A stretch of DNA of 64,000 nucleotides from Pelotomaculum sp. PtaU1.Bin035 (GTDB lineage Bacteria; Bacillota; Desulfotomaculia; Desulfotomaculales; Pelotomaculaceae). This document shows positions 25,919 through 49,594 of this stretch, in pieces. The stretch's first letter is position 1. The number at the start of each line of letters is the position of its first letter. The notes under the pieces are model-generated. The model saw only the letters and a list, made by a program, of their open reading frames with translations, did no database searches and had not been told where the DNA came from. The stretch is from NCBI GenBank assembly GCA_002067965.1, contig MVRN01000123.1, forward strand, positions 1 to 64,000. The letters are read 5' to 3'. The position numbers and the translations under genes were made by a program.

Positions 25919-26072
25919 ATTGGGGGCTTCATTATTAATGTTTCTATAACTGAGTAAAAGCGTTTTGAAAAAAGCGACCACCCCAATCATCCTCTGCTCC
26001 TTTCTGAACAGGGTGGTTCCGCTGATAAGAGAGAATCAGATATTGCAGAGTAGAGAGAAGGAAGAGGTAGGC

Positions 26073-27635: not shown

Positions 27636-27636
27636 T

Positions 27637-30000
27637 ATGTACTACTATGAATGGGATAATATAACACGCGGATATAAATTGACCACGCAAACAGGGCGGT
27701 TTGTCGCCAATGAAATCAGACCCGTATTCGCTCCTGAGTTGTCATTGACGGGCTTGGGGAAGCGGTTTGAGTATAACTGCAATGAAACGCGACCGCTCCT
27801 TTGGGCGCAGAAAAACGTGTATCTGCTGAATGGCGAAAAGGTCGCGCAGCTAAATAACACGCAATACGGCAAGCCGCTGTCACCCGAATTCTTCTTTGAG
27901 GGCAAGTTGAAACTTGAACCTGTGGACATAGCGGCAATGGTAGCGAAAAACGCATTGATTATGGACATAGTTGTTGCAGACGCGAAACGCCGCACGAAGG
28001 AGCTATACGACGCAGACATTGGACGTTGTGACATAGCTTATATTGCGTTCTCGGGTGGTAAGGACTCTGTAGCCTTGCTCGACATATGTCACCGCGTCTT
28101 GCCGCTATCCGTACCAGTCATATTTAGCGACACGGATATGGAGTTGCCTGATACCTACAAGGTTTGGGAGGAGATTAAGAGCCGTTATCCAGAGCGAGAG
28201 TTTATTGCGGCCAAAGCAGAGAGTTCCGCACTTGAGAACTGGCGTCGTTTTGCTCCCCCCTCGCGAACGATTCGGTGGTGCTGTTCCGTCCACAAGAGTA
28301 CGCCTGCGCTTATGCTCCTCAAAGACAAACTACATAAGCCAGCAATTAAAGCAATGGCGTTTGTTGGCGTAAGAGGCGATGAAAGTTACAGCCGTTCGTT
28401 TTATGAGGACGCCACGGACGGAGCGAAAAACGCCTCGCAGTTGAACCGTATGCCGATTCTGGATTGGGGAGCTCACGAGTTATGGTTGTATATCTTTGCT
28501 AATAATTTATTGATAAACTGCGCTTATAAGAAAGGATTGACACGCGTTGGCTGTATGATGTGTCCTGAATCGTCCGAGAAATATGCATGGTTTGTGGACA
28601 AGGCTTACCCGCGCGGCTTGAAGCCATACAATGACATTATTATTGAAACGAGCAATAAGAATTTCAAAACCGCACAGGACAAAATCGAGTTTATCGGTAG
28701 CCTGAGTTGGCAAGCGCGGAAAAGCGGCGTGGTCTTAAGAGAAACAATGTCGAACCCTCTCGAAGAAAATAACGATTTAACTGTTGCGTTCCAAAGCCCT
28801 CATTTTACAAAGGAATTGTTTTATGAGTGGATAAAAACGATCGGAACAGTTGTCAAAGATAAAGCAATAGATAGTGAACGGTTGAAATTGCCTAATTCGC
28901 TTGATCACGGGATACCGTTCACATACAATTCACCATATACAGGTGGTGGCACAGTAAAATTCGAGTTCCGCAATGATGCCGAAAAAACAACAATGCTTCC
29001 ACTAATGAGAGCATTTCTACGAAAAGTATCAGCTTGTATAGTTTGCCGTAGTTGCGAAGCCGAATGTAGCTTAGGGGCAATAAGTGTCAAAAACGGTAAG
29101 CTAAAAATTAACGGCGACAAGTGCGTAAAATGCCGTAAATGTTATGACATTGAAAAAGATTGTTGGAGGTTTAAGTCAATGTACAAATCAGAAAACGACA
29201 ACAATAAAATGAGTGGAATAAACCGTTACAATAACTTCGGTTTGCGGGGGAATTGGCTTGCTCATCTCATTGATATGGGCGAGAAGTTCTTCCCGTGGAC
29301 GAATGACCACCCGTTGGGGAGAAAAATGGTTGAATCGGCGAGCGCATGGTTTCAGCAAGCGGGATTAATAAAAGAAAAAACACGTAAGCAGACTGCACTT
29401 GTTGAGTTGTTCAAAAAATATGGCGATGAATCTCCAGTTGGTTGGGAATTTATCTGGCTTATGCTCGCAAACAATGCTGTATTGGTAAAATGGTTTGTTA
29501 TGGCGAATGACATCGACAAAACTTATACTATAGAACAACTGTCTGAAATGCTCGGCAGTAACAATCCGAACCTCGGAAAATCTACTATTGAAGGTGGACT
29601 TGCCGCTTTGAAAGATATGCTCACCAAATCACCGCTTGGCGGAGAAAACACGGTGACGCTACCCGAAATGAAAGGCAAAACCGTCAAGAGCATCACTCGC
29701 AAAGCAAAAGACGTGAACCCACTGACGATTTTATATGGTTTGTACCTCATCGCCGATAAAGCCCAGCGCGGCACTTTTACCGTCCGAGAGTTGCTGACAG
29801 CGGACGAGGAATCCACGTTCGTGTCACCGATTGTAGCGTTCGGCATAACGGCGGATACGTTTAAAAAACAATGTGAGGGTCTTAAAAGCAAATACCCTGA
29901 TTATATAGAAACAACGTTCACTTTTGGATTGGACGAATTAACTGTGTTTCCGAAAAAACACACAACCGAGGATATTATTTGCTTAGCGTTGGGGGAATGA
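27637..30000 (+). CDS. brxP: BrxP-like protein: PAPS-reductase/PP-loop, ferredoxin and DUF4007-like domains
   Basis: 787 residues. The PP-loop ATPase/PAPS-reductase domain (about 120-390) has SGGKDSVALLDICHRV at about 139, a WCCSVHKSTPA cysteine block, VGVRGDES and CAYKKGLTRVGCMMCPESS. Then comes a two-cluster ferredoxin-like segment (about 466-510, CIVCRSCEAEC and CVKCRKCYDIEKDC). The C-terminal region (about 524-787) resembles DUF4007 (NNFGLRGNWLAHLIDMG). This PP-loop/Fe-S layout is shared with DndC of DNA phosphorothioation and marks type-4 BREX, which has BrxP in place of the PglX methylase. A sulfur-based DNA mark is therefore plausible (inference). Start ATG 27637 is ten bases after GGAGGTG. 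Confidence 0.85.
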   Translation: MYYYEWDNITRGYKLTTQTGRFVANEIRPVFAPELSLTGLGKRFEYNCNETRPLLWAQKNVYLLNGEKVAQLNNTQYGKPLSPEFFFEGKLKLEPVDIAAMVAKNALIMDIVVADAKRRTKELYDADIGRCDIAYIAFSGGKDSVALLDICHRVLPLSVPVIFSDTDMELPDTYKVWEEIKSRYPEREFIAAKAESSALENWRRFAPPSRTIRWCCSVHKSTPALMLLKDKLHKPAIKAMAFVGVRGDESYSRSFYEDATDGAKNASQLNRMPILDWGAHELWLYIFANNLLINCAYKKGLTRVGCMMCPESSEKYAWFVDKAYPRGLKPYNDIIIETSNKNFKTAQDKIEFIGSLSWQARKSGVVLRETMSNPLEENNDLTVAFQSPHFTKELFYEWIKTIGTVVKDKAIDSERLKLPNSLDHGIPFTYNSPYTGGGTVKFEFRNDAEKTTMLPLMRAFLRKVSACIVCRSCEAECSLGAISVKNGKLKINGDKCVKCRKCYDIEKDCWRFKSMYKSENDNNKMSGINRYNNFGLRGNWLAHLIDMGEKFFPWTNDHPLGRKMVESASAWFQQAGLIKEKTRKQTALVELFKKYGDESPVGWEFIWLMLANNAVLVKWFVMANDIDKTYTIEQLSEMLGSNNPNLGKSTIEGGLAALKDMLTKSPLGGENTVTLPEMKGKTVKSITRKAKDVNPLTILYGLYLIADKAQRGTFTVRELLTADEESTFVSPIVAFGITADTFKKQCEGLKSKYPDYIETTFTFGLDELTVFPKKHTTEDIICLALGE

Positions 30001-30002
30001 AA

Positions 30003-33000
30003 ATGGAGAAACGTCATTACGCGGATTTTTTCACCGTACCGCATGATTACAAAGCGAATATGACCCGCGAGGCGATTAACGAAACGCCGGAGACGTGGCT
30101 TGACTTCTATCCACATAAAAAGTATGTTGAATTTCTTAGCACACTTTTGCAGGTAGTAAATGGTGACTCAAAGTCCATATGGCTTACGGGTAACTACGGC
30201 ACGGGCAAGAGCAACGCCGCACTTGTTACTCAAAAACTGTTTATGGATGATGAGGTGCGTGTTAAGAGATGGTTTGGGCTATGCAAAAACGCACTCTCGG
30301 ACGGTTCGGCTCTCTTGAACGATCTACTTGCCCGCCGCAACGATGGGACGCTTGTAGTGTATGATTATAATGCATCTGGGCTTGGCCCGAATGAGGATTT
30401 TCTCGTGCGTTTGGAGCGCGGGATTGTCGCCGCGCTGAACGACAGCAATATGACCGTACCCGCCAAGGCTAACCTTGACGAGATAATTCAACGGCTGCGC
30501 CGCGAAGACAAGCATTTTTTTGCCACGCGGGATTTAATTCAAGGAGAACTCGCCTACTTAAACTCAGGCATAAAGACAGTTGACCAGCTTGTCGAAGAGT
30601 TGCAAAAGGCGCATCAGCATACAGACGCGCCAACCGATTTGATTGGCGACGTCCAAAGGGTTCTCCACAGGGATAACATTTACTTGGACATCAGCGTTCC
30701 CACGTTTAGAAAATGGATTCTCGAAATCCTATCCGCCAACAACCTTAAAAACATAGTCTACATATTTGACGAGTTTTCCGAGTTTATCGATTCAAATAAG
30801 GAACACTTGAAAACCTTTGAGGATGTTACGGAAAATCCCGGTATCAACAAGTTTTATCTTGTCCCCGTCACACATTTAAGCATAAAAGCATATTGGGCTG
30901 AGGGTTCAGATAATGCCCAAAAAGCTAATACACGTTTCTATTTCCGCAACCTGCAAATGCCCAATGATACAGCGTTCAAACTTGCCGCTCACGCAATGAA
31001 ACCGAATCCCGACCCGGCAATAGCCAAAGAGTGGAAAGAGGAGAAAAATTTGTTGTGGGAAGCGGTACGCGGCATAGCTGAGGTGCATTTCAAACCCGAA
31101 GATGTGAGCAAGCAGTCGTTTTATGATATTCTGCCGATTCACCCGATGGCAGCGTTTCTGCTGAAATTCCTGTCGGAATCGGCTCGCTCGAATCAGAGGA
31201 GTATTTTTGAATACCTCAAAGGCAGCGCGGATGGTCATGAGTTCCAAGATTTTATTCGCGTTGGCGGACCTGGCATTGCCAGCAAGCAGTTTTTAACAGT
31301 TGACTACCTTTGGAAATACTTCATCGAGCGTGATGATTTGGGGCTTAACAAAGAAATAATCGCTATCCGTTCCGAATTTGAGCGCATTAAGATCCGGGAG
31401 TTCCAAAACAAAGACGATGATGACGAAGATATCCGCGTTTTGAAAGCGGTATTGTTGTTCTGCCTACTTGCCCGCCTCAATCCCGATGGTCACGAGCGGT
31501 TGAAACCGACAGTGACAAACATTGAGTTGGCGTTCCAAGGAGACGGGGTAATTGTCGGCGTAGGCGGCATTATAAAGAGTTTAGCGGATAAACATTGTTT
31601 CAGCGTAGTCAACGGCAACATTGAACTTTTCGCCACCTCTGTCGGCGGTGCGGAATTGCAGACGAAAATCGCTGAACTCGAGAACAAATTCCACGATTTG
31701 CTGTCGGATAAGACGGAAGAAATGCTGAAAGCACATATCAAAAGCACTATTTCCTCATTCTCGGTTGGACGATTTGACGTGCGCGTATCGGATGTCGGAC
31801 ATACAACACTGACAAACATTACGGCAACAACTCGCGACAAATACAGCAGCGGTCAAAACAAGGATACCGGCGCGGTATGCCTTTGGTTCGTTGTTGCTAA
31901 AAATAAGGACGAGCAACTGCAAATACCTGATAAAATCAAAGGGATACTTACACAACTGCGCGGCCACCGTATTATGATGTTCGCCTTCCCATACCTTACG
32001 TTTTGCGACACCAATCAAAGCCTTTGGAGCGATTACATTTCACAATACGCGCAATATCTGCTCGAAAACGATTCAACCGCAAAGGGCCAACGTAAAAAGG
32101 CGTATGAGCGATTGGAGCGCGAATGGTTCGACAAAATCAAGAAACAAGAAACGCAAATAAAAGCTTATACGGTAGTAAACGGACAGATCGTTGCCAACGA
32201 TACGTCTTGGAGCAATTACAAAAAACTCGTCGAAGATTTCGTTCGTAGGACGCTGCCTTGTTGTGTGGATTATTTGACTTCGCAAATAACCGCTTTCCAA
32301 ACAAACGCCCTTAAGGCATGGGCGACAGCAGGCATTCAGTTTGAAGCCGCGTCCGGTCAATACAAACAGCTTGTGAACAACTTCAAGGGACAGGGCATTT
32401 CTGCGGACGATAGTTGGTTCGCGCAAAATTCCACGCACCCCCTTGCGCAAATCCGCGAGTTGTTCGACAAGAAAATTGCAAACACGATTGGCAAAGGTAC
32501 AAATCTGTCTATCCGCAAAGTGTACATTGAACTTCAACGTGCTCCTTACGGGATGAAGTATAATGTTCTCAGCGCGTTTTCGCTCGGCTTCGCATTGCGG
32601 CACATACTTGATAAGGGCTACCAATGGGATAATCTGCAAAAGACAGGCGCGCTGGATAGCGATACCCTTGCCGAAATTATCGAATCTGTTGTCAAAGATG
32701 ATGGACAAGACAAAATCAAGGGCGAAAAACTGATCTGCCGCCTTTCGCCGCAAGAAAAAGCATTTGTTGAGAAAGCACCGCAGATGTTTGGAATAACAAA
32801 TACCATAGCGGACGGGCGTGTTGAAGACGTTCTTTTGCAGATACAAAACCATATCGAAAAGATGTCGGGACGTGTTCCCCTGTGGGCGTTGCCGGAATAT
32901 ATTTACTCCGTTGGCGAGCCGAACGCAGATGTCATTGTCGATGCGCTGAATAATGTCTGCTTGGCCGGAAGCACAAGTTCCAAAAGCAATAAGACAGAAG

Positions 33001-34193
33001 AACGCACGAACGCGGTTAAGGATGTGGGACGATTTGTCATTGATAATGACGGTCTCATAAATACAGTGGCGGGTTATATCAAACCCGAGAATTTTGTGAT
33101 GGCGTTCCAGATATATGTCGATAAGACCGCTCCCGAGCTTATCTCACTTGCTCAGAGCATAGGTGATATCTCGCATGGTTATTGTCAAGCGATTTTAGGC
33201 AAAGTGGCGGAAACAGCCGGTTGGCTTTGGAATCAAGCGGACATTAGCAATGCAATTGACGAAACAATACAGGAATATGAAGTCATTAAACTTTTGAAAC
33301 CCATAGCAGGATTTACGAGCTTTATGCCGTATGAAAACGCTATTGATACCTTGAGGTACGCAGTTACCGTTGCCAACAAACTCCCGAGAACGCTTATCGT
33401 GTCCGCCTTACCGTCATTGTCCATTTTTCTGTCGAGTATCGCTAAAGGCGGAGTGGCAAGCGATATTAGAGAAGCGTTGGAACTGAACGCAGACACTTTG
33501 GGAGCGCTATTTTTTGACATATCAAAAGCAAAGTCAGTTGAGTTGCTGAAACAGCGTTTGAACGGGGTAACAATCTCGGATGCTGATTTATTGAGTATTT
33601 ATAACAGTTTACCGAGCGGATTTTCGCACGATGAATCCGTGTTTCTGAACGATGTTCACGCAAGAATTGAGAATTTCGTGAAGGAGTCCGTTGCCCAGAA
33701 CATAAAGTCCGAATGGAAACGCCTAACAGAGACAGATACGCCGTCTGTTTGGGCCGACAGCAACGGTATACCCGCACGGTTCGCTCTAAATAATGTTGCC
33801 GAGGCAAGCGATATTATCGCGGCTGTCCAAACACCGAAGATATTCTCCTCGGAGAAACTCGGCGAACTGCTGAATGTGCTAAGCGGACTAGCACCTCTTA
33901 CAATCGGAGAGTGCCAAAAACAGTTTATCGCGGAAACCGTGCCGCGCAGGTTTGCAAAGTTTAATATAAACCTATCGTCTTTGCTCGAATTTTTAAGGAG
34001 CAAGTACGGGAATCAGCCGAACAATTGGCAGATTAGACCCGACATCAGCGAGTTTATCCGCAGTCAGTATAAGGGGACGTTTGCGCCGCAGGTAGCCGAG
34101 AAAATCAAGAAAACCTCGGCAGAAGACCTCAAAAATAAGCTGTTGCAATTGGCACAGGACAATCCCGATTTGGGATTGCTGTTTTGGGAGTGA
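30003..34193 (+). CDS. brxC: BrxC/PglY-like large P-loop ATPase of the BREX system
   Basis: 1396 residues. Walker A is GNYGTGKSN at about 63 and Walker B is IVYIFDEFSEFID at about 250. The long helical remainder has no other recognised domain. BrxC/PglY is a core component in every BREX type. The ATG at 30003 is seven bases after GGGGG; an ATG at 29997 overlaps the brxP stop. brxP, brxC, pglZ and brxL are packed with gaps of under 15 bases. Confidence 0.88.
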   Translation: MEKRHYADFFTVPHDYKANMTREAINETPETWLDFYPHKKYVEFLSTLLQVVNGDSKSIWLTGNYGTGKSNAALVTQKLFMDDEVRVKRWFGLCKNALSDGSALLNDLLARRNDGTLVVYDYNASGLGPNEDFLVRLERGIVAALNDSNMTVPAKANLDEIIQRLRREDKHFFATRDLIQGELAYLNSGIKTVDQLVEELQKAHQHTDAPTDLIGDVQRVLHRDNIYLDISVPTFRKWILEILSANNLKNIVYIFDEFSEFIDSNKEHLKTFEDVTENPGINKFYLVPVTHLSIKAYWAEGSDNAQKANTRFYFRNLQMPNDTAFKLAAHAMKPNPDPAIAKEWKEEKNLLWEAVRGIAEVHFKPEDVSKQSFYDILPIHPMAAFLLKFLSESARSNQRSIFEYLKGSADGHEFQDFIRVGGPGIASKQFLTVDYLWKYFIERDDLGLNKEIIAIRSEFERIKIREFQNKDDDDEDIRVLKAVLLFCLLARLNPDGHERLKPTVTNIELAFQGDGVIVGVGGIIKSLADKHCFSVVNGNIELFATSVGGAELQTKIAELENKFHDLLSDKTEEMLKAHIKSTISSFSVGRFDVRVSDVGHTTLTNITATTRDKYSSGQNKDTGAVCLWFVVAKNKDEQLQIPDKIKGILTQLRGHRIMMFAFPYLTFCDTNQSLWSDYISQYAQYLLENDSTAKGQRKKAYERLEREWFDKIKKQETQIKAYTVVNGQIVANDTSWSNYKKLVEDFVRRTLPCCVDYLTSQITAFQTNALKAWATAGIQFEAASGQYKQLVNNFKGQGISADDSWFAQNSTHPLAQIRELFDKKIANTIGKGTNLSIRKVYIELQRAPYGMKYNVLSAFSLGFALRHILDKGYQWDNLQKTGALDSDTLAEIIESVVKDDGQDKIKGEKLICRLSPQEKAFVEKAPQMFGITNTIADGRVEDVLLQIQNHIEKMSGRVPLWALPEYIYSVGEPNADVIVDALNNVCLAGSTSSKSNKTEERTNAVKDVGRFVIDNDGLINTVAGYIKPENFVMAFQIYVDKTAPELISLAQSIGDISHGYCQAILGKVAETAGWLWNQADISNAIDETIQEYEVIKLLKPIAGFTSFMPYENAIDTLRYAVTVANKLPRTLIVSALPSLSIFLSSIAKGGVASDIREALELNADTLGALFFDISKAKSVELLKQRLNGVTISDADLLSIYNSLPSGFSHDESVFLNDVHARIENFVKESVAQNIKSEWKRLTETDTPSVWADSNGIPARFALNNVAEASDIIAAVQTPKIFSSEKLGELLNVLSGLAPLTIGECQKQFIAETVPRRFAKFNINLSSLLEFLRSKYGNQPNNWQIRPDISEFIRSQYKGTFAPQVAEKIKKTSAEDLKNKLLQLAQDNPDLGLLFWE

Positions 34194-34198
34194 TGACG

Positions 34199-36268
34199 AT
34201 GACGTACACGCTTAACGAGTATTATCGGTATGCGAGCAGTACGGCTACCCGAGCGGAAGTATATTCCGACAACAACACGGCGGCAAATTTGCTCGCATAC
34301 CATAAGCAAAATGGGGCGGTTGAGCTTGCCTTGAGCGAATGCATCGGTACTGACTTGCCCAACTTGCCTATGCCCGATGCACTTATACAAGAGTTGGACA
34401 TGAAAATAACCTCAAATTCAAAGCGCGTAGTCGTTACTGGCATCGACGCTTATTTATCTTTGCTCAGTAAGCAGAACGTCAAAGCCTTTATGGTAGCTTT
34501 GCACGGACGGATTGAGGCGCAAAAACTAAACGCCGTTTATTTGATTAGCGGTAATCGTTTTGACGGCACTAATTTTACCAACCCCAAATATGAGAACTCG
34601 TTGCAAGTCGTCCGTATAGGTGATAGCGGGCAATACCTCACGCAAGTAATGGTATCTGTCGTTTCTCAAAAATGGGTACATCGAGGCAGCCACCCAACCA
34701 ATTGGAATGCTCTCTTGAAAACGCTTGGACAGTTTGAACCAACAGGCAATTACATACTTGTATTAGATAATTATGATATTAAGCAGGCAGGGCTTTCGGA
34801 TAGCGTTATGCAGTTGCTTGACATATTCAAAATCGCAGAGTGTTTTTACGGCATAACCGCTAATATACCGAAAAAAGTGCTTGAAACGCTTGTGTCAAAA
34901 TGCAAAGATATGAACATTTCCCCGCTTGATTTCTTAAAATCGCAGTTCGGACAGGATAACGCAAATATAAGGCTTGCCGTAAAACGTCTTCTTGAATTGA
35001 GAGACGATGAGTTATGGCTGGCTTATGTTTGGTTTCTCAAAAAAACAATTGATGGCAGTTCCTATTTTGTAAGGGTTCTGTCTGAAAACTTATCCCATGA
35101 TAACCTATTGCGGAAGTATGTATGTGATATAGCAATAACTGTACTTACAGATGCAAACGCTACGAAGTTCGCGAACGAACGCTCCTCAGCCATAATAGAA
35201 CTCGGCAATACTGCGGATTCGTTAATAATTGAGTTTATTTCAAAGATAAAAAATTATTCTAACGAGACTGTGGCTTGTTGGCTTAACAGTGGTACAGAAG
35301 CGGAGCGTATAGAAATCGTCCGCCGTGTTTCGGAGAGCGATTTGACCGTTGGATTCCCTCAGATGTGGCGCAACCTTTATCCGTTGTTTGCCGATTACTT
35401 ATCTGATGAATATAATTATGGAAACGACGACTTAACCGCTTATTTTCGTGATTACCGCAGGATGAAAATCAGCAACACAGTTACAGCCGATTTTGTTAAA
35501 AAAGCATTTGATTTTGTGCTACCGACCACGTTCGTTTTGCGCGATGCGGTATTACAAGAATTGTCTGTTGATAACGATACGGCTTTACTTGTGGTAGATG
35601 GTATGGGCGCGGAATATTTCCCGCTTATCCTCGCAATGGCGAAACGCATGGCAATGAATATCGAATCCGCTACTATTGCTGCTGTAAAACTACCTACATC
35701 AACTGAGTTTAACGCCATTACTTGGGAAAAAAGCAGGTGGCTTGAACCATCCGTACACGAGGTTGATAATATTGCACATTATGGAGCAGCGAAACACGAA
35801 AACTGCCCGCCGCCACGCAACATTGTGGCTACGCTTGCCGTGTTCGAAGAAGTTATTAATCGTATCTCAAATGGTTTTACAAGCTACGAACGCATTGTTG
35901 TTACTGCTGACCACGGTACGTCACGGCTTGCCGTTCTTGCTCACGAGAACAATATGAATACAACTTTATCGTGGAATGGTGAGCCGGAAGATTGGCGATA
36001 TGCCATTGCGCCGCCAAATACACAACGTCCTCCGGAATTTGAGCCTTATTACGATGCCGAAAAGAACATAACATATTGGGTTGTGCGCGGGTATAATCGT
36101 TTGCCGAAAAAAGGGCCAAAGCTCTATGAACTACATGGTGGAGCTTCGCTCGAAGAGCGGTTAGTACCGATTGTTGTTTTCTCAAGGGATAAATCTGATA
36201 ATATTCCGAAACAGCTCGGCAAGAAAGCGGTTGAACAGCTTGTTGAGAAAATGGATTTTGATATTTAA
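34199..36268 (+). CDS. pglZ: PglZ-domain protein of the BREX system
   Basis: About 689 residues. The C-terminal alkaline-phosphatase-superfamily PglZ domain (about 455-640) shows the metal ligands in LLVVDGMGAEYFP (about 465) and IVVTADHGTSRLAVLAHE (about 569). The N-terminal half is helical. PglZ is the signature protein of BREX. GGGAG lies eight bases before ATG 34199; ATG 34193 overlaps the brxC stop (TGATG), so coupled translation is likely. Confidence 0.92.
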   Translation: MTYTLNEYYRYASSTATRAEVYSDNNTAANLLAYHKQNGAVELALSECIGTDLPNLPMPDALIQELDMKITSNSKRVVVTGIDAYLSLLSKQNVKAFMVALHGRIEAQKLNAVYLISGNRFDGTNFTNPKYENSLQVVRIGDSGQYLTQVMVSVVSQKWVHRGSHPTNWNALLKTLGQFEPTGNYILVLDNYDIKQAGLSDSVMQLLDIFKIAECFYGITANIPKKVLETLVSKCKDMNISPLDFLKSQFGQDNANIRLAVKRLLELRDDELWLAYVWFLKKTIDGSSYFVRVLSENLSHDNLLRKYVCDIAITVLTDANATKFANERSSAIIELGNTADSLIIEFISKIKNYSNETVACWLNSGTEAERIEIVRRVSESDLTVGFPQMWRNLYPLFADYLSDEYNYGNDDLTAYFRDYRRMKISNTVTADFVKKAFDFVLPTTFVLRDAVLQELSVDNDTALLVVDGMGAEYFPLILAMAKRMAMNIESATIAAVKLPTSTEFNAITWEKSRWLEPSVHEVDNIAHYGAAKHENCPPPRNIVATLAVFEEVINRISNGFTSYERIVVTADHGTSRLAVLAHENNMNTTLSWNGEPEDWRYAIAPPNTQRPPEFEPYYDAEKNITYWVVRGYNRLPKKGPKLYELHGGASLEERLVPIVVFSRDKSDNIPKQLGKKAVEQLVEKMDFDI

Positions 36269-36282
36269 GGACGGTGACCGAA

Positions 36283-37782
36283 ATGTACGATATTACCAAA
36301 CTGCGTCAACATTTCCCGACGACCACGGTCTACAAAGACCCGTCTGTAATGGCAATGTTTCTGAACGCCAAGATTCCGGCATTTTTGCGTGATTGGATAC
36401 TAAAACGCAAAGCGGGAAGCGACGGGCGTATCGGCGACATTGATTCGCTCAGCACTTATATCGGAACTATTATTCCACGCCGAGAGGAAAAAGGCCGGCT
36501 TGAAGACGAGGCTCGTTCCAACGGCGAGACACGCCAATTCCTCGCGAGAATAGATGTAAGTTTTAACTCCAAGGCGAACTATTACACTTTTGAGATACCC
36601 ACACTCGGTTTTGCCCATAATCAGACTATTGTCGAGGATTATGTATGGGATAGAGTCAAAGGTGAACTCATCGGCGGAGCGGGCGGTTGGGGCTTAATTA
36701 AACTTGGCTATATGCCGCCGGAGGGTAACAAGAATAACGGAAAATTCACGCTCCTTGATTATAAAAACTTTTGCCCTTATGAGGTGAGCGTTGACGCATT
36801 CCGCGAGGCTAGAAAACATTTCAGCACCGAAGAATGGATGAACATTATTCTCGGCGCGATTGACTACAACCCCGATGGCTACGCCAAGGCTAAAATCAAC
36901 GGTCACGACCTGTTAGTAGATGAAATATGGGAAGCGAAACACGCTATGCTGACGCGTTTGTTGCCATTCATTGAACCGCGCGTTAATTTAGTAGAACTTG
37001 CCCCGCAACAAACAGGCAAGTCGTATATTTTCGGTAAAGTTGGCAAATATGGATGGCTTGCGGGTGGCGGTAGCTTAAGTCGCGCAAAGCTGTTCTATGA
37101 TATTGCCTCAAAACGATTCGGAATAGTCACATCAAATGACTTTGTAGCCGTTGACGAGATTAAATCCATACACTTTAACGACCCCGCCGAAATGCAAGGT
37201 ATACTTAAAGGTTATATGGAAGACGGCTTTGTTAATGTTGCCGGCGTTAAGGTTGAAGGAGACGCAGGCATCATTCTGCTTGGCAACATTGATATAAATG
37301 ATATGGACGCCTCTAAGGATATGTTCCGTGAATTGCCGGATGTCTTTCGTGATGCCGCACTTATTGAGCGCGTCCATGGATTTATTCTTGGGCGTAAGAT
37401 TCCGCCTCTCACAGACGCTATGATTATCAATGATTGGGCGTTGAACACCGAGTATTTCACCGAAATTATGCACTTAATGCGCACCCCTGCTGAAACGCTT
37501 CGTTATCGCGGACTTGTTGAACAATTGGTTCAGACCAAGCGAGGTGTTGACAAGCGCGAAAAAGAAGCTGTGTTGCGTCTTTGCACGGCGTATATGAAAC
37601 TATTTTTGCCTCACGCCGATGGCGAATTGATCAAGGACATTGGTTTTCAAAGGGATTTCAAGTTGTACTGTTTACAACCAGCAGTAAGGATGAGGGACAC
37701 AGTTTTACAGCAAATGAAGATAATCGACCCCGCACAATTCGGGAAGCGGAGTATGTCATCATATACATTAAGGGAAGAATAA
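36283..37782 (+). CDS. brxL: BrxL Lon-like protease/ATPase of the BREX system
   Basis: 499 residues. AAA+ core with Walker A in LAPQQTGKSYIFGKV (about 241-248) and Walker B in FVAVDEIKSI (about 290), then GIILLGNID and an Arg-rich sensor region (DVFRDAALIERVHGFILGRK). It ends before a long Lon protease domain, so it is shorter than type-1 BrxL. Start ATG 36283 after AAGGACGG. The fourth core gene of the operon. The brxP-brxC-pglZ-brxL order matches type-4 BREX. Confidence 0.9.
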   Translation: MYDITKLRQHFPTTTVYKDPSVMAMFLNAKIPAFLRDWILKRKAGSDGRIGDIDSLSTYIGTIIPRREEKGRLEDEARSNGETRQFLARIDVSFNSKANYYTFEIPTLGFAHNQTIVEDYVWDRVKGELIGGAGGWGLIKLGYMPPEGNKNNGKFTLLDYKNFCPYEVSVDAFREARKHFSTEEWMNIILGAIDYNPDGYAKAKINGHDLLVDEIWEAKHAMLTRLLPFIEPRVNLVELAPQQTGKSYIFGKVGKYGWLAGGGSLSRAKLFYDIASKRFGIVTSNDFVAVDEIKSIHFNDPAEMQGILKGYMEDGFVNVAGVKVEGDAGIILLGNIDINDMDASKDMFRELPDVFRDAALIERVHGFILGRKIPPLTDAMIINDWALNTEYFTEIMHLMRTPAETLRYRGLVEQLVQTKRGVDKREKEAVLRLCTAYMKLFLPHADGELIKDIGFQRDFKLYCLQPAVRMRDTVLQQMKIIDPAQFGKRSMSSYTLREE

Positions 37783-42550: not shown

Positions 42551-44257
42551 ATGGCAACAGAAATAGCGGCAATTTACTGCAGGCTAAGCCAGGACGACGG
42601 GCAGACCGGCGAGAGTGGCAGCATCCAGACACAGAAAACACTGCTCACTCAATATTGCACCGACCATCATATCGCCATCGGTGGATATTACTGCGATGAC
42701 GGATGGTCTGGAACCAACTTTGACCGTCCGGATTTCCGCCGTATGCTTGGCGATATTGAAGCCGGGAAAATCAATACAGTTATTGTAAAAGACCTGTCCC
42801 GATTTGGCAGAGAGTATGCCCAGATGGGACTCTATATCGAGCACTACTTCGAGGAAAAAGGCATCCGATTTATCTCTGTAACAGAGAATGTGGATACAAA
42901 AAGCGGCGTTGATAACCTTATGCTGCCGTTCACAAATGTTATCAATTCCTATTATGCGAGGCAGGCGTCCACCAAGACCAAGGCGGCGCACAGGGCAAGA
43001 GCAAAGGCGGGAATGTACCTCGGTAGTCACGCTCCCTTCGGGTATGTAAAAGACCCAAACGACAGACATCACCTGATTATTGACCCTCCGGCAGCTGACA
43101 TAGTGAGGCAGATCTTCCAGATGTTTGCGGACGGCATTGGCTATGTGCGCATGACAAAAATCCTGCGGGAGCGTAAAATCCTCAACCCAATAGCCTACTT
43201 CAACCAGAACAATCCCGATTATTATAAAAGAGACTACTGGCGTAAACCCTTTGACTGGCACGCCACGTCCATACGGGCGATTCTGTTAAATGAGGCATAC
43301 ATAGGGCAGGTAGTGTTCGGCAAGACGAAAACGAAAGGCTTCTTTGATAAGACCCGCATTAATGCTCCGGAAGAGGAATGGATCATAGTGGACAACGCTC
43401 ATGAGCCGATTGTATCCCGAGAGCTTTGGGATACGGTGCATCAACTGATGAAAGGACGCAGGCGCGAAAACAGCAACGGGGAAATTCAGAAGTTCGCAGG
43501 AATGGTCAAGTGTTCGACATGCGGCTCATCCCTTAACGTCAGCTTTGATAAGAAGAAGGGCAAATATACCGGCTTCTCCTGCTGGGTATATAAGAACTAC
43601 GGCAAGGATCGATGCACATCTCACGCCATCGGCTGGAAAACCATGAACCAGCTTGTGCTGGAGGACATCCGCCGTAACGCGAAAGCGGCGAAGCTGGCGA
43701 CGCCGAAATACAAGGAAATACTCATCGCTGCCAAGACCGAAAAGAAAAAGCAGGAAACCGAAAAATGCAAGCGTGAGCTCAAGAGTGTGGAGAAAAGAAT
43801 AGCCGAGTTGGACAAGATTTTGAACAAGCTCTATGAGGACTTGGCGCTTGAAAAGGTTACCGAGGAACGCTATCAGGTCATGTCCAAAGGCTATGAGGCG
43901 GAGCAATCTGGGCTGAAAGAACGGAGAAAACAACTCACCGAACTGATTACCAGGGCAGAGTCGGCATACGAAAACATTGAGAAATTCATCCCGCTTATTC
44001 AGAAGTACACCGACATAACCGAGTTGAATACGCACATCCTGAACGAGCTGATACAGAGGATTGTGGTTTATGAAAAGACGGATAATCCTGACGGCAGCAA
44101 GAGCCAGCGGGTGGATATTCATTATAAATTCATCGGTTATGTGGGGATGAAAGAAATGTTTGGACTGCCGATGGTCATGGCAATGGCGAAGGATGTTGAG
44201 ATTGATGATGCGCTGATAGCCGAAGCAAAGGAACTGGCGAAAGAGCTTGCCGGATAA
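42551..44257 (+). CDS. Large serine recombinase (TnpX/TndX-like)
   Basis: 568 residues. Resolvase domain with catalytic Ser at about residue 13 (YCRLSQDDGQTGESGSIQTQ) and the VKDLSRFGREYAQ block; recombinase domain with MTKILRERKI; zinc ribbon (CSTCGSSL at about 320, then a second Cys pair); a long coiled coil (about 385-480), and a DUF4368-like tail. Such enzymes integrate and excise elements by cutting within a 2-base core between inverted half-sites. This is the probable integrase of the 23-kb element. ATG 42551 after GAGAGGTG. Confidence 0.92.
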   Translation: MATEIAAIYCRLSQDDGQTGESGSIQTQKTLLTQYCTDHHIAIGGYYCDDGWSGTNFDRPDFRRMLGDIEAGKINTVIVKDLSRFGREYAQMGLYIEHYFEEKGIRFISVTENVDTKSGVDNLMLPFTNVINSYYARQASTKTKAAHRARAKAGMYLGSHAPFGYVKDPNDRHHLIIDPPAADIVRQIFQMFADGIGYVRMTKILRERKILNPIAYFNQNNPDYYKRDYWRKPFDWHATSIRAILLNEAYIGQVVFGKTKTKGFFDKTRINAPEEEWIIVDNAHEPIVSRELWDTVHQLMKGRRRENSNGEIQKFAGMVKCSTCGSSLNVSFDKKKGKYTGFSCWVYKNYGKDRCTSHAIGWKTMNQLVLEDIRRNAKAAKLATPKYKEILIAAKTEKKKQETEKCKRELKSVEKRIAELDKILNKLYEDLALEKVTEERYQVMSKGYEAEQSGLKERRKQLTELITRAESAYENIEKFIPLIQKYTDITELNTHILNELIQRIVVYEKTDNPDGSKSQRVDIHYKFIGYVGMKEMFGLPMVMAMAKDVEIDDALIAEAKELAKELAG

Positions 44258-44294: not shown

Positions 44295-44312
44295 AAGTCT
44301 AAATTAAATGGA

Positions 44313-44333
44313 CTGTACGGAAAGTTCGTACAG
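44313..44333. promoter_or_regulatory. 21-bp palindrome, site 1
   Basis: Arms CTGTACG and CGTACAG with a GAAAGTT centre. Located about 20 bases after the -10 box and about 40 before the GHKL-ATPase start. One of three related palindromes of the same length (44313, 45273, 45928). Confidence 0.75.
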
Positions 44334-44370
44334 TTCATCTTATTGCTTTCATCTTAAGAAGGAAAATTTG

Positions 44371-45237
44371 ATGACATTAATTGTACCGAAGTTCTTTTGT
44401 ATAAATGACAAGATTGATGGATTCCTTACTCAAGTAGAAAAGGTGCCTACCGATGAGCAAGTATCTCTTGATTTGGGTAAAATAGAATTCATTAACCCCA
44501 GTAATTTGATAATGTTAATAACGACAAGCAGGGCTATATTTGAGCGGACAGGCAAGAAGGTTAGATGGATTAATGTATCGAGTGTTGTAAGTGCGTACCT
44601 TGAAAGGATAAATATCAGTAATGTTTCCTTTATTGACTTTAAACTTCCACCAGTCTGGGAAAGATTATATAGAGGTACTCGCAAATCAAACACGTTGATT
44701 GAGCTTCAAACTATAGATGACTGGAAAGGTTGTGGGGATGCAGTAAAGCGCACGAAAGAAATTTTACTTCAATGGTTCCCAAATCAATTAGGAAGGCCAA
44801 CAAACGATATTTGCTCCCTGCTATCGGAAACTGCAGAAAATAGTATTGACCATAGTAGCGAATCACCGGGACAGGGATATTGTTTTTATGTCCTCCAAAA
44901 ATACCACATAGATGGCAAAGATCAGATTCAAATTGCGGTAGGTGACATTGGTATTGGAATACGTAATAGTTTAAAAAGGGTAGCGCCTGACTTTGTTAAC
45001 AATGATGTGCTGGCGATCAAAAGAGCGTTATTTCAAGGCATGAGCGGACGTACTGATAAAAGTGGCGGTCTCGGATATATAAGGGTTAGGGAGATCCTAA
45101 AGCAGCGGGGCGGTACAATACAGATTCGTTCTGGTTACGGGTCAATTACATATTCGGCTCATCCGGAACAACAGCAAACTACTGCGCATCGATGCAGCTT
45201 TCCAGGCACCCAAACAATTTTTACGATTTCCTCTTGA
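44371..45237 (+). CDS. GHKL-family ATPase with N-terminal STAS-like region
   Basis: 288 residues. The first ~95 residues resemble a STAS-type fold (VSLDLGKIEFINPSNLIMLI). The C-terminal half is a histidine-kinase-like ATPase: N-box LLSETAENSIDHSSE, G1 box VAVGDIGIGIRNS and G2 GLGYIRVREILKQRGG. It has no phosphoacceptor His domain, so it resembles anti-sigma-factor kinases (SpoIIAB/RsbW type) more than a sensor kinase. ATG 44371 follows AAGAAGGA. Probably works with the STAS/winged-helix protein encoded next. Confidence 0.7.
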   Translation: MTLIVPKFFCINDKIDGFLTQVEKVPTDEQVSLDLGKIEFINPSNLIMLITTSRAIFERTGKKVRWINVSSVVSAYLERINISNVSFIDFKLPPVWERLYRGTRKSNTLIELQTIDDWKGCGDAVKRTKEILLQWFPNQLGRPTNDICSLLSETAENSIDHSSESPGQGYCFYVLQKYHIDGKDQIQIAVGDIGIGIRNSLKRVAPDFVNNDVLAIKRALFQGMSGRTDKSGGLGYIRVREILKQRGGTIQIRSGYGSITYSAHPEQQQTTAHRCSFPGTQTIFTISS

Positions 45238-45263
45238 CAATCATTGGACAGGCTGTATATAAT
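45234..45263 (+). promoter_or_regulatory. Promoter of the STAS/winged-helix gene
   Basis: TTGACA (45234-45239), 18-base spacer, TATAAT (45258-45263). The -35 box overlaps the stop codon of the preceding gene. Confidence 0.8.
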
Positions 45264-45272
45264 TAAATTGAA

Positions 45273-45293
45273 CTTCACCAAAGTTTCGTGAAG
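45273..45293. promoter_or_regulatory. 21-bp palindrome, site 2
   Basis: Arms CTTCAC and GTGAAG around CAAAGTTTC. It lies about 10 bases after the -10 box, so it spans the transcription start. It shares CTTCACCAAAG with site 3 and the AAAG centre with all three. Confidence 0.8.
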
Positions 45294-45313
45294 TACCTGA
45301 AAGGATGTTAAAA

Positions 45314-45883
45314 GTGAATAAGATACTTGAGGTATTAAAAATATCAAAACAGGTTGGCTTGGAGGATGTATTGGTTTCTCGCCCGAAGGCGCGGGAGATG
45401 TACGAAATTGCATTGTCACAAATCGGACACCTTAGTTCAGATGATGTGGTTTACTGTGATTTTTTAGGTATTACAGCTTGCAGTAGTTCGTTTGCCGATG
45501 AATTTGTTTTGAACATCCAAAAACAAATTCTACTTACAGAAAACACATTGCTGATTATAAAAAATGTTGTTCCTGATGTTTTGTATGATATCAATGCAGC
45601 ATTAAGGCTTAGAAATGAAAAAGATTCATTGAAGCTGTTACTCTTAAGCTATAACAATAAAGAATACGCTGTTGAAGGAGACAAATTAGAACCAAATCTT
45701 AAAGAAGTATTTTTGATGTTAAAGTCTTCTGAGCAGATAACAGCACGGGATATTGCCCAGCGGTTTGATGTTGAAATCAATAATGCGAGCAATCGGCTGA
45801 AGAAACTACATGTTTCACACTTGGCACTAAAGCGAGAGGTAAATACTGAAACTGGTTTGCGCCACGCATATTACTTACCATAA
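45314..45883 (+). CDS. STAS-like (DUF4325-type) protein with C-terminal winged helix
   Basis: About 189 residues. The N-terminal ~100 residues resemble the DUF4325 STAS-like fold (DVVYCDFLGITACSSSFADE is the pivotal strand-helix). The C-terminal ~60 residues are a winged-helix DNA-binding domain (ITARDIAQRFDVEINNASNR, then a basic wing). GTG 45314 is chosen because GAAAGG abuts ATG 45305. The combination of STAS and winged helix beside a GHKL ATPase suggests a phospho-switched transcription factor that binds the nearby palindromes (inference). Confidence 0.7.
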   Translation: MNKILEVLKISKQVGLEDVLVSRPKAREMYEIALSQIGHLSSDDVVYCDFLGITACSSSFADEFVLNIQKQILLTENTLLIIKNVVPDVLYDINAALRLRNEKDSLKLLLLSYNNKEYAVEGDKLEPNLKEVFLMLKSSEQITARDIAQRFDVEINNASNRLKKLHVSHLALKREVNTETGLRHAYYLP

Positions 45884-45891
45884 GCACTTAT

Positions 45892-45917
45892 AAATTCCCT
45901 CGATGAGGGAATTTATT
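45892..45917 (+). terminator. Terminator after the STAS/winged-helix gene
   Basis: AAATTCCCTC (45892-45901) pairs with GAGGGAATTT (45905-45914) over a GAT loop, followed by ATT. Ends the regulator transcript 9 bases after its stop. Confidence 0.8.
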
Positions 45918-45927
45918 CGGCGAATAA

Positions 45928-45948
45928 CTTCACCAAAGATTGGTGAAG
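45928..45948. promoter_or_regulatory. 21-bp palindrome, site 3, ahead of the ubiquitin-like operon
   Basis: Arms CTTCACC and GGTGAAG around AAAGATT; the symmetry extends one more base on each side (8-bp arms). It lies 79 bases before the Ubl gene. The best-conserved member of the set. Confidence 0.85.
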
Positions 45949-46026
45949 TACGGAATGAAGATACGAGCAGTCATAAGACTTGCCTTTATATAAATAAAAA
46001 TTTCACTTTTTTTGGAGGAAACAAAA

Positions 46027-46278
46027 ATGGATGAAAAAAAGAAATTAGTCACTATCTACGTGGAAAGCACACCTCATGAATGGCCGAAAGGGGAAATTAC
46101 ATACGCCGAAGTAGTTACCCTTGAAGTGCCCGATTATCCGCAACATCCCGAAATCACTTATTCAGTTACGTATTCAAGAGGTCATGGCAACAAACCGGAA
46201 GGAACACTTTCGCCCGGCGGAACTGTAAAAGTTAAAGAAGGAATGAGATTCAATGTTTCAGAAACTGGCCAGTCATAA
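46027..46278 (+). CDS. Bacterial ubiquitin-like protein (multiubiquitin-type domain)
   Basis: 83 residues, a beta-grasp ubiquitin-like domain: LVTIYVESTPHEWPKGEITY, then VTLEVPDYPQHPEITYSVTY and GGTVKVKEGMRFNVSETGQS. The KEGMRFNV..T..S ending is typical of the multiubiquitin domain family. It ends with QS instead of GG, as do many members of this group. GGAGG is eight bases before ATG 46027. It overlaps the E1 gene by 26 bases, so the two are translationally coupled. Expected role: the tag joined to target proteins by the E1/E2 fusion that follows. Confidence 0.75.
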   Translation: MDEKKKLVTIYVESTPHEWPKGEITYAEVVTLEVPDYPQHPEITYSVTYSRGHGNKPEGTLSPGGTVKVKEGMRFNVSETGQS

Positions 46279-47467
46279 TGACGATATTAAACGTTTAGTG
46301 GATAAGGGATATGCTGTTGGCTTCGATAGCGGCTATCTCGTTATACGGGACATCCCTTACTTGGATCAAGAACTAAAATTGCGGATAGGTGCATTTGTAT
46401 CCAAGCTTGTGTTTGTTGATCAAAATAAGGTTACACAAGATGATCACCAAATCTTTTTTGCGGGATCTATTCCATATAATCTTGATGGCAAGCCTATCCC
46501 CAATCTTGGAGGCGGCACTACGCATCTTACTTTAAGCGACAACAGCAAGGATGTAATTGTGGAGCGCTCGTTCTCAAATAAGCCGCGTGTTAATGGCGTA
46601 TTAACAGGATTCAAGGATTTCTTTGAAAAGATTGAAAGCTATGTTACTGTTATTTCTGGACCGGCTATGGAGAAATATGATATTACTCCATATACATACA
46701 GAACCGTTGAACAAGCACACGAAGATTCAGTATTCAAATTCCAGGACACTCTTACGTCCAGAGCTGAGATAGCTGACTTAGCTGTAAATTTTAAGGATGA
46801 TGTTATTGCGGTGATAGGCCTTGGGGGCTCTGGTGCTTATGTTCTTGATTTTATTGTAAAGACGCCAGTCAAAGAAATACGCGCCTTTGATTTGGATCCA
46901 TATTATGTTCATAATGCGTTCCGTTCTCCAGGGAGACTCCAGGAGGATGAACTCGGTAAACTTAAAGTTGAGGTTTTCGGTTCGAGATATGAAAATTTTC
47001 GTTATGGGCTAAAGACTGAGCCTAAATTCATCGACGCAACTTGTCAGGATGAATTGAATGGTGTGACCTTTGCATTTGTATGCGTTGATAAGGGAACCTC
47101 ACGTGCTGGTATTATTGATCTTTTAGCATCAATGAAAATACCATTTATTGATGTAGGAATGGGGCTAAGGCGAAAAGATGGGAAGCTAAAAGGAATGATT
47201 CGCACTTCTTATTTTTCTACTGATGAAGATCAGATTAAGGAAGGAAAGAGCCGAATCCCGTTGACCGACAATCCTGACAATGTGTATAAGACCAACATTC
47301 AGATTGGAGAGCTTAATGCACTTAATGCTTGTTTGGCAGTTATAAGATATAAACAGTTACGTGGATTCTACATGGAATCCATGGATAGTTATGAACTATT
47401 ATTTAATATTTCTGATATGACCATGGCGGGGAGTGATTCAACTGACAACCAGAATGATGAAGATTAA
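46253..47467 (+). CDS. E1-like ThiF adenylyltransferase with N-terminal E2-like (DUF6791-type) domain
   Basis: 404 residues. N-terminal ~170 residues: an E2-like/DUF6791-type region (HQIFFAGSIPYNLDGKPIPN) with no Cys at all. Residues about 180-390 form a ThiF/UBA Rossmann domain: VIAVIGLGGSGAYVLDFIV at about 185, an acidic RAFDLDPYYVHNAFRSPG block for ATP, and FVCVDKGTSR. Its only Cys residues are in DATCQDE, FVCVDK and NACLAV, so thioester transfer, if it happens, must use one of these. It would adenylate the Ubl C-terminus. The next gene overlaps its end. Confidence 0.75.
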   Translation: MFQKLASHNDDIKRLVDKGYAVGFDSGYLVIRDIPYLDQELKLRIGAFVSKLVFVDQNKVTQDDHQIFFAGSIPYNLDGKPIPNLGGGTTHLTLSDNSKDVIVERSFSNKPRVNGVLTGFKDFFEKIESYVTVISGPAMEKYDITPYTYRTVEQAHEDSVFKFQDTLTSRAEIADLAVNFKDDVIAVIGLGGSGAYVLDFIVKTPVKEIRAFDLDPYYVHNAFRSPGRLQEDELGKLKVEVFGSRYENFRYGLKTEPKFIDATCQDELNGVTFAFVCVDKGTSRAGIIDLLASMKIPFIDVGMGLRRKDGKLKGMIRTSYFSTDEDQIKEGKSRIPLTDNPDNVYKTNIQIGELNALNACLAVIRYKQLRGFYMESMDSYELLFNISDMTMAGSDSTDNQNDED

Positions 47468-47852
47468 GCTACAGCGAGTAACCCATATACCAAAAGAACT
47501 GGAGCCTGGAGTGCTTTATGTATCCGAGGAATTTGGTACTGCCGCTCATCTTTGTGCATGTGGGTGTGGTGCTAAAATTCGCACTCCATTAGGCCCTACA
47601 GGATGGACTTTTTATGACACCCCCGCTGGGCTAACCCTGCGCCCTTCTGTGGGTAACTGGCAGCAACCTTGTAAATCGCACTATATTATAAACAAAGGTC
47701 AAATCATATGGGCTGCTAAATGGTCAGATGACCAAATTGTGGCAGGACGTGCTGCCGAAGAATTGCGTCGGAAAGTCTATTACGATAATCTGTATAAGAA
47801 TAGAGGTATTTTGAGAAGAGTCTGGAACTGGATCAAGAAATTGTTCAGTTAA
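47454..47852 (+). CDS. DUF6527 family protein of the ubiquitin-like operon
   Basis: About 132 residues. A zinc-binding centre is visible: HLCACGCGAKI, then PSVGNWQQPCKSHYIINKGQ. This Cys-rich centre and the WxFY / PSxG / CkSHyfI pattern match DUF6527, which neighbours multiubiquitin and ThiF genes in bacteria. Its role is unknown (a peptidase-like or recognition role has been proposed for such partners). A basic C-terminal helix (RRVWNWIKKLF) may touch membrane or nucleic acid. It overlaps the E1 gene by 14 bases; ATG 47454 or 47457 may be the start. Confidence 0.75.
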   Translation: MMKIKLQRVTHIPKELEPGVLYVSEEFGTAAHLCACGCGAKIRTPLGPTGWTFYDTPAGLTLRPSVGNWQQPCKSHYIINKGQIIWAAKWSDDQIVAGRAAEELRRKVYYDNLYKNRGILRRVWNWIKKLFS

Positions 47853-47858
47853 TATAGA

Positions 47859-47887
47859 TTGCAAATAAAGGTAAATTTTGTTATGAT
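47859..47887 (+). promoter_or_regulatory. Promoter of the PemK-like gene (copy two of a shared promoter)
   Basis: TTGCAA (47859-47864), 17-base spacer, TATGAT (47882-47887). The whole block resembles that at 44266-44294, and the downstream sequence TCAAATA...TTTTTGA is a weak version of the 21-bp palindromes. Confidence 0.75.
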
Positions 47888-47946: not shown

Positions 47947-47987
47947 CTTTTGAGAATCTATAATCTTCTCATAGTAGGAGCGCATTG

Positions 47988-48605
47988 ATGAATACTGAAT
48001 TGGCGAGTGCTGAAAAATTTATTGAATGGCTTAAAACAAAATCACATCTAAATTCCATTTCTTCACGTGCTGGCGGAAGATTCGTTAAGCGGGGTCAGGT
48101 TTACTGGTGCCATTTTGGTATTAACATCGGAAGTGAAATGAGCAAGACTTCTCCACGACCGGCAATTATAGTGCAGAACTACATTGGCAATTCGAAATCA
48201 CCCAATACAATCGTTGTCCCGGTTACCCACGACAGCGGGACTCTTCCCTGTTTAGTTCCATTGACGCCGATAGTTGACAATTCAACCGGAAAGGTCATTT
48301 TAGATGGCCAAGCAAACACAGCAAATATTGTATGTGTCAGTAAAGCGCGTTTGGGCGATCTGATTGCCACACTTTCAAATGCTGATATGAAAAAGGTCGA
48401 CGAAAGCATGGCACAAACATTGGATTTAATGCGTTATTATAAAGAGTTAAAAGATAAGTATGACAAACTGGTTGAATACAATAAAAAAATCAAAAGTGAA
48501 CGTAACGCAGCACAGGATAAAATCAAAGAGATAAAGGAATTTATTAATAAAGATGGTTTTACTGAGCAGTCCCAAAAAACTTTATTAGAGCTACTTGACA
48601 AATGA
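47988..48605 (+). CDS. PemK/MazF-like protein with C-terminal coiled coil
   Basis: 205 residues. PemK/MazF fold (about 30-145): VKRGQVYWCHFGINIGSEMS, then PRPAIIVQNYIGNS, NTIVVPVTHDS and a late QTLDLM-type helix. The RPAIIV and PVT blocks are typical of MazF endoribonucleases. The last ~60 residues form a charged coiled coil not found in ordinary MazF. No antitoxin gene is visible on either side; upstream is DUF6527, downstream is the element end. It may be an orphan toxin, or a phage-defence effector. ATG 47988 after TAGGAGC. Confidence 0.8.
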   Translation: MNTELASAEKFIEWLKTKSHLNSISSRAGGRFVKRGQVYWCHFGINIGSEMSKTSPRPAIIVQNYIGNSKSPNTIVVPVTHDSGTLPCLVPLTPIVDNSTGKVILDGQANTANIVCVSKARLGDLIATLSNADMKKVDESMAQTLDLMRYYKELKDKYDKLVEYNKKIKSERNAAQDKIKEIKEFINKDGFTEQSQKTLLELLDK

Positions 48606-48971: not shown

Positions 48972-49367
48972 TTAGGGCTGCTTTTCGATTCCGAGGCGGG
49001 TTTTTAATCCTTCTTGGAGGACCTGAGAGAAATTTACTCCCGCTTCATCGCCAAGGACTTTAAGATATTTAGGAATTGATACGTTGATTCTCATGGTGGT
49101 TAAATCGTTTGCTTTGCGGTATTTCACAAAGTCGATGTCCACCCATGAAACAAGCTCATTAGCTTCATGCTGAGGTTCAGTGGTGGATGGTTCAGGGATA
49201 ATACGTCCGTCGTCTTGCTCGCATATCCCCCAAAGCCCAATAGCGTCACGGGCCATATAAATAGCTTCTGCAATGTCTTTACCTTGTGTATTAATGTCTA
49301 GGTCAGGAACAGTTACGACGTACCCTTGCTCGGTTGGGGTAAGGACGATAGGATACACCTTTGTCAT
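48972..49367 (-). CDS. hicB: HicB-family antitoxin
   Basis: 131 residues. The N-terminal HicB domain (YPIVLTPTEQGYVVTVPDLD) is a partial RNase H-like fold that binds and inhibits HicA. The C-terminal ~45 residues are a ribbon-helix-helix DNA-binding domain (TTMRINVSIPKYLKVLGDEA). It lies downstream of hicA in the same minus-strand operon, the usual order, and probably represses it at the palindrome at 49595-49627. Confidence 0.9.
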   Translation of the reverse strand: MTKVYPIVLTPTEQGYVVTVPDLDINTQGKDIAEAIYMARDAIGLWGICEQDDGRIIPEPSTTEPQHEANELVSWVDIDFVKYRKANDLTTMRINVSIPKYLKVLGDEAGVNFSQVLQEGLKTRLGIEKQP

Positions 49368-49404
49368 TTAATAACACTCTCCTTTATGGCGGCAGACTAG
49401 AAGG

Positions 49405-49578
49405 CTATTTCAGCCCTCGCCGCTTAATGATTTTCTTTGCTAATATGTCATCTATTTCAGTTTGTCGTGAGATTGGTTCGTTTGCTGTTCCGTTAGTATA
49501 AATGGTGTGGTCATGACCTTCTCGTTTCATCAACCATCCGTTTTTTTCTAGGAGTTTTATTAAGTCTTTTCGTTTCAC
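49405..49578 (-). CDS. hicA: HicA-family mRNA interferase toxin
   Basis: 57 residues: KRKDLIKLLEKNGWLMKREG, then HDHTIYTNG. HicA is a double-stranded RNA-binding-domain RNase that uses the His in the GHDH motif. GTG 49578 follows GAGGTG at six bases. hicA-hicB is transcribed from the palindrome-covered promoter just upstream. Confidence 0.9.
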   Translation of the reverse strand: MKRKDLIKLLEKNGWLMKREGHDHTIYTNGTANEPISRQTEIDDILAKKIIKRRGLK

Positions 49579-49594
49579 GTCCAACACCTCTCGA

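Follow-up and report, generated by a model that had tools for sequence, protein, structure and literature searches.

Among the described bacterial systems, the closest to the locus analysed here are the class 6e polyUbl operons and the Bub operons. For class 6e, both JAB and domain-X versions were described by Iyer, Burroughs and Aravind 2006 (PMC1779556). Operons of the domain-X subset encode a ubiquitin-like protein (Ubl) with one to three Multi_ubiq-type domains, an E1 with an uncharacterised, non-JAB N-terminal domain, and a small metal-binding-type protein, and their distribution is sporadic and mobile. The Bub operons (BubA, BubB, BubCD, DUF6527) of Citrobacter and Enterobacter encode a Multi_ubiq-Prok-E2_E fusion, a Prok-JAB-ThiF fusion and a DUF6527 protein. 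Oxygen-ester intermediates and a Ser-His protease have reportedly been found for Bub by Ye et al. in 2026. A ThiF-type E1 that activates a Ubl or a target is common to Bil and Type II CBASS as well. These two systems, as generally understood, rely on cysteine enzymes and JAB proteases. For the Bub operons, protection against phages has not been shown (PMC13373217).

Herein, we describe a three-gene operon in the window, that is, the whole stretch of 64,000 nucleotides that was analysed. The operon is a member of the kind already described in 2006 (PMC1779556). As in the domain-X subset of class 6e, there is a Multi_ubiq Ubl, an E1 in which a non-JAB domain (here DUF6791) precedes ThiF, and a small protein of the metal-binding type, and the distribution is likewise sporadic and mobile. 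The C-x3-C motif and the later Cys/His pair of class 6e, which the paper writes as H-x2-C, have their counterparts in C34, C38, C73 and H76 of DUF6527. We infer that DUF6791 is the “domain X” of that paper. In contrast to the reference class, the window operon encodes a Ubl with a single domain, and the relative closest to it comes from a Bacillota metagenome-assembled genome (MAG), a lineage absent from the 2006 list. With the Bub operons, the locus shares a Multi_ubiq Ubl, DUF6527 as the third gene, a CapK/CapS-like pair upstream, and a related ThiF E1: the top fold matches of the AlphaFold2 model of the window E1 (mean pLDDT 88) were Citrobacter BubCD structures. Plasmids carrying the operon that the CapK/CapS paper deals with (CapS WP_001567865.1; PMC13373217) were found by way of a BubCD fragment from the PDB. 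Unlike the Bub operons, the window operon has neither JAB (BubC) nor Prok-E2_E (BubB), DUF6791 is fused to its E1, and its Ubl carries a T-x-x-S tail, whereas the Bub tail ends in Gly. The E1-E2 models of PADLOC match the window weakly (best 0.0024).

Gene content, conservation and distribution of the operon

A preliminary description of this DNA presented the locus as a compact operon of Ubl, E1 and DUF6527 genes that overlap by 26 and 14 nt, respectively, and the coordinates of the open reading frames are exactly so (Table 1). The Pfam scores of Multi_ubiq, DUF6791, ThiF and DUF6527 all exceed the curated cut-offs, and NCBIfam places the E1 in PRK06153. The 83-residue protein was correctly taken for a beta-grasp protein: in addition to its Pfam match, its family profile matches a solved structure, PDB 9cd2 (1.5e-48). 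Each of the three families has one copy in the 2.54 Mb genome.

Table 1. Features of the window operon and of the region upstream of it, in order of position.
Feature	Position	Strand	Remarks
CapK-like kinase, STAS-like region and GHKL ATPase	44308..45237	+	start uncertain (ATG 44308 or 44371); HATPase_c 1.8e-6
sigma-70 promoter match of capS, 12/12 (TTGACA, 18 nt, TATAAT)	45234..45263	+	consensus match only
Candidate CapS operator 1, ACTTCACCAAAGTTTCGTGAAGT	45272..45294	.	23-bp palindrome, after the sigma-70 match and before capS
CapS-like repressor, STAS-like domain and wHTH	45305..45883	+	comparison with PMC13373217
Perfect 27-bp inverted repeat between capS and operator 2, with arms of 12 nt	45890..45916	.	
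Candidate CapS operator 2, ACTTCACCAAAGATTGGTGAAGT	45927..45949	.	23-bp palindrome upstream of the Ubl operon
Ubl: 83 aa, one Multi_ubiq beta-grasp domain, tail TGQS	46027..46278	+	PF14452 6.6e-18
Ubl tail/E1 start dual-coding overlap, 26 nt	46253..46278	+	same 26-nt overlap in 72/87 loci
DUF6791-ThiF (E1-like) protein, 404 aa	46253..47467	+	DUF6791 1.1e-42, ThiF 3.4e-7; adenylation residues conserved
DUF6791 domain	46253..46750	+	predicted alpha, four-strand meander, long helix; Ser108, Tyr130 conserved
Tyr345 codon	47285..47287	+	invariant; before C-terminal helix, as Tyr370 of BubCD
DUF6527 protein, 132 aa, ATG at 47454	47454..47852	+	Cys-rich core and predicted C-terminal helix; Pfam 3e-22
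Ser65 codon (P-S-V/I-G)	47646..47648	+	Ser in 86/86 same-type, 7/7 JAB-type, 69/73 phage proteins
His76 codon (S-H-Y)	47679..47681	+	His in 85/86 same-type, 7/7 JAB-type, 68/73 phage proteins

A genome scan for relatives of the E1 found 564, of which 80 were kept. The co-occurrence with ThiF and DUF6527 in other genomes, on which the reading as a Ubl operon had been made to depend, proved to be near universal: nearly all relatives have a Multi_ubiq gene upstream of the E1 gene and a DUF6527 gene downstream, and this order is repeated across many phyla, in loci whose choice by E1 similarity shows that the trio travels together but not how frequently DUF6527 or Ubl genes are solitary. The E1 of the nearest relative, the Bacillota MAG (L011), is 95% identical to that of the window. 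The stretch common to the two spans positions 46026-47860 only (93.8% identity), and the three genes therefore behave as a cassette. The dN/dS ratio against this relative is approximately 0.11 for each of the three genes, which indicates selection on all of them. Since the order recurs across many phyla and each gene has this low ratio, the three-gene arrangement is not due to chance.

Within the class of the source organism, DUF6791 was present in 3 out of 113 genomes. Using tblastn, the E1 had matches on 115 plasmids and none in phage records. One plasmid, A. johnsonii pXBB1-8 (NZ_CP010358.1), carries both operon types, the DUF6791 type at ~93 kb and the JAB type at ~65 kb. Near the Ubl operons of two rhizobial plasmids (L005 and L096), which differ in operon type, there are genes for an S8 family peptidase and an ATP-binding protein. 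The absence of a JAB-type peptidase, pointed out earlier for the window, extends to the relatives: neither a JAB nor a Prok-E2_E gene was found in the window operon or in 87 related loci, most of them with ~6 kb of flank.

The operon had also been placed next to a BREX system. BREX genes (BrxP, BrxC, PglZ and BrxL, 27565-37782) do lie 8 kb upstream of it, but its closest association is with the CapK/CapS-like pair directly upstream. We take this BREX system to be probably type 4. A HARE-HTH protein is encoded before the BREX genes (25965-27635). On the other side, just after the operon, there is a gene for a MazF/PemK-like protein of 206 aa with a long C-terminal extension (1.2e-18; 47985-48605), and HicB-like and HicA-like genes are found on the minus strand (48972-49587).

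The upstream CapK/CapS-like pair and its palindromes

The CapK-like protein matched Citrobacter CapK with a BLASTP value of 3e-6, and in the alignment it has no counterpart of the HTH with which E. roggenkampii CapK begins at its N-terminal end. The CapS-like protein is 24% identical to the studied CapS over the aligned part; its Ser62 aligns with Ser54, the phospho-acceptor, and it retains the Asn that contacts DNA. The 23-bp palindrome has two copies in the 2.54 Mb genome, one before capS and one before the operon, and occurs nowhere else. It differs in sequence from the TTAA sites of the published CapS, none of which was found in the window. In L014 and L055, two further loci of the DUF6791 type that encode a CapS homologue, the narrow and wide patterns of the published sites (TTAA-N-TTAA and TTAA-N10-TTAA) do occur, at the two corresponding positions ahead of capS and of the operon. 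The inverted repeat that immediately follows the window capS is possibly a terminator or a second regulatory site. Directly before capK lies a gene for a serine recombinase with DUF4368 (42551-44257), a possible agent of island mobility.

Induction of CapK/CapS by DNA damage was shown for E. roggenkampii (PMC13373217), and by analogy the pair is a candidate DNA-damage switch at the window locus. CapS would repress its own promoter and that of the operon via the two palindromes. DNA damage would set off CapK, whereupon CapS would be phosphorylated and both promoters released. Near the operon of the nearest relative, no CapK/CapS pair was found. Many other loci have ImmA/IrrE or WYL genes upstream instead, and these are similar to the CapH/CapP and CapW controllers (PMC13373217).

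Candidate chemistry of Ubl transfer and removal

As noted in the preliminary description, the translated Ubl ends in TGQS and not in GG. TGQS forms the final four residues in 60 out of 87 loci, and the more general T-x-x-S is conserved in 86 out of 87 (T in 87/87, S in 86/87). Dual coding with the start of the E1 gene was rejected as the cause of this conservation, because all 9 loci without a detected Ubl/E1 overlap also end in TGQS; these 9 were called by a script, and for three of the 9 the vicinity of the junction yielded no start codon. Gly is variable in the tail, as TDKS, TSES and TVQS variants exist. Thus, judging from the sequences, trimming of the tail to Gly is unlikely.

The earlier statements on cysteines in the E1 were accurate: residues 1-165, which comprise the N-terminal part, are free of Cys, and only three Cys (C264, C277 and C360) occur in the entire chain. 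In the E1 family, C264 and C360 are variable, while C277, at a predicted strand, is 92% conserved, with Ser or Ala in the remainder. The family alignment has no invariant Cys. Since C264 and C360 vary and C277 is replaceable by Ser or Ala, the family offers no conserved cysteine for a thioester. The doubt about a normal Cys thioester, which had been raised for the E2-like part, is thereby supported for the protein as a whole. The adenylation residues D213, D215, N221, R224, K238 and D279 are kept across the family. Tyr345 is present in 57 out of 57 family sequences and Tyr370 in 8 out of 8 BubCD relatives, each preceding the last long helix, and the title of one PDB entry lists the mutations D104A and Y370F. 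A joint alignment puts the two tyrosines 8 columns apart, so that their equivalence rests on their order along the chain.

The N-terminal domain of the E1 had been labelled E2-like, a label to which sequence comparison lends no support. A comparison of DUF6791 with Prok-E2_E by hhalign gave a probability of 1.6%, Pfam yielded no E2 match, and the DUF6791-E2 comparison score was at the level of shuffled sequences; E2 homology by sequence was thus not found by any of the three. The order of helix, four-strand meander and helix predicted in the whole-E1 AlphaFold2 model fits the E2/RWD order and is compatible with the label.

On balance, with confidence slightly above even, we read the window operon as a module for Ubl conjugation that belongs to the polyUbl/Bub group (class 6e, domain-X) and would be governed by the CapK/CapS-like switch outlined above. 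The ThiF domain would adenylate the Ubl tail, whose Ser end would require no trimming. Because the E1 has no conserved catalytic Cys, we propose that the Ubl would be passed on as an oxygen ester, with Tyr345 on the E1 as the best candidate. DUF6791 would stand in for an E2, by means of either Ser108 or Tyr130, and the Ubl would be taken off again by DUF6527, acting as a Ser-His hydrolase. The module may serve in defence.

Alternatively, the E1 might adenylate the Ubl tail and hand it directly to the target with no covalent enzyme intermediate, while DUF6791 would merely bind the Ubl or the target. MccB-type adenylating enzymes act on their own substrates in this manner, and MccB is among both the sequence and the fold matches of the E1; an E1 family with no conserved Cys, and a DUF6791 domain with no sequence link to E2, are also as direct transfer would have it. 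Tyr345, which is invariant and close to the predicted catalytic loop, and its parallel in BubCD, Tyr370, argue against it, and we regard direct transfer as rather unlikely. In yet another scenario no conjugation occurs at all: the Ubl would act non-covalently, e.g., in assembly or sensing, and the E1 would be its ATP-dependent partner. A tail other than GG agrees with this, as does, as far as its title goes, the work of Gong et al. 2025 on the Ubls of this group, “Structural diversity and oligomerization” (cited in PMC13373217). However, the conserved adenylation residues and the fixed T-x-x-S tail are hard to explain without tail chemistry, and the window Ubl has a single domain. We therefore deem a purely non-covalent Ubl improbable.

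The last step of the conjugation module that we favour depends on DUF6527, for which no solved fold was found in the PDB and whose AlphaFold2 model has a mean pLDDT of 92. The suggestion that DUF6527 takes the place of the missing JAB was rejected as stated, because the JAB-bearing Bub operons carry DUF6527 as well. Iyer et al. suggested that a Zn finger serves in target recognition (PMC1779556), and DUF6527 might be such a zinc-binding target adaptor and not a hydrolase, a possibility that deserves attention but falls well short of even. It would account for the CxCxC motif and later Cys that are conserved in DUF6527 of the DUF6791-type operons. Across groups, however, the Cys residues are less constant than Ser65 and His76: several Cys are gone from one homologue (L098) in which Ser and His remain, and C73 is missing in 31 out of 73 phage proteins. 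As Ser and His persist where Cys residues are lost, their conservation speaks for a Ser-His hydrolase more than for a pure zinc adaptor.

DUF6527 in phages

A structure search with the DUF6527 model led to matches to viral proteins. Three phage records have DUF6527 (Erwinia phage pEa_SNUABM_29, Burkholderia phage FLC9 and Dulem virus 40), two of them from jumbo phages, and 79 contigs of IMG/VR encode it (L112-L190). In 73 out of these 79 contigs, the models of E1, Ubl and BubCD had no match within at most ~5 kb on each side, and the gene neighbours vary. The phage proteins are short, ending ~11 residues after His76 compared with 57 in the window operon type, and most are without the C-terminal helix. 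His32 is common to the phage proteins (73/73) and the window operon type, while it is present in 0 out of 7 JAB-type proteins. When the labels same-type, JAB-type and phage are mapped onto a tree of the core, 5 changes are needed, versus ~59 with shuffled labels. Thus, phages hold DUF6527 lineages of their own.

The occurrence of DUF6527 in phages without Ubl or E1 is a new lead. The trimmed phage protein could be a counter-defence enzyme that strips Ubl from the conjugates of such operons, an idea that we put forward tentatively, as one that has a smaller chance of being right than wrong. The elucidation of the chemistry of cysteine-free Ubl conjugation is only beginning, and the window operon provides a compact case, apparently under selection, with Y345, S108, S65 and H76 as candidate residues. 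To this, it adds a candidate DNA-damage switch with defined candidate operators and a possible phage answer. If true, a phage deconjugase would be direct evidence that Ubl operons belong to the phage-host conflict.
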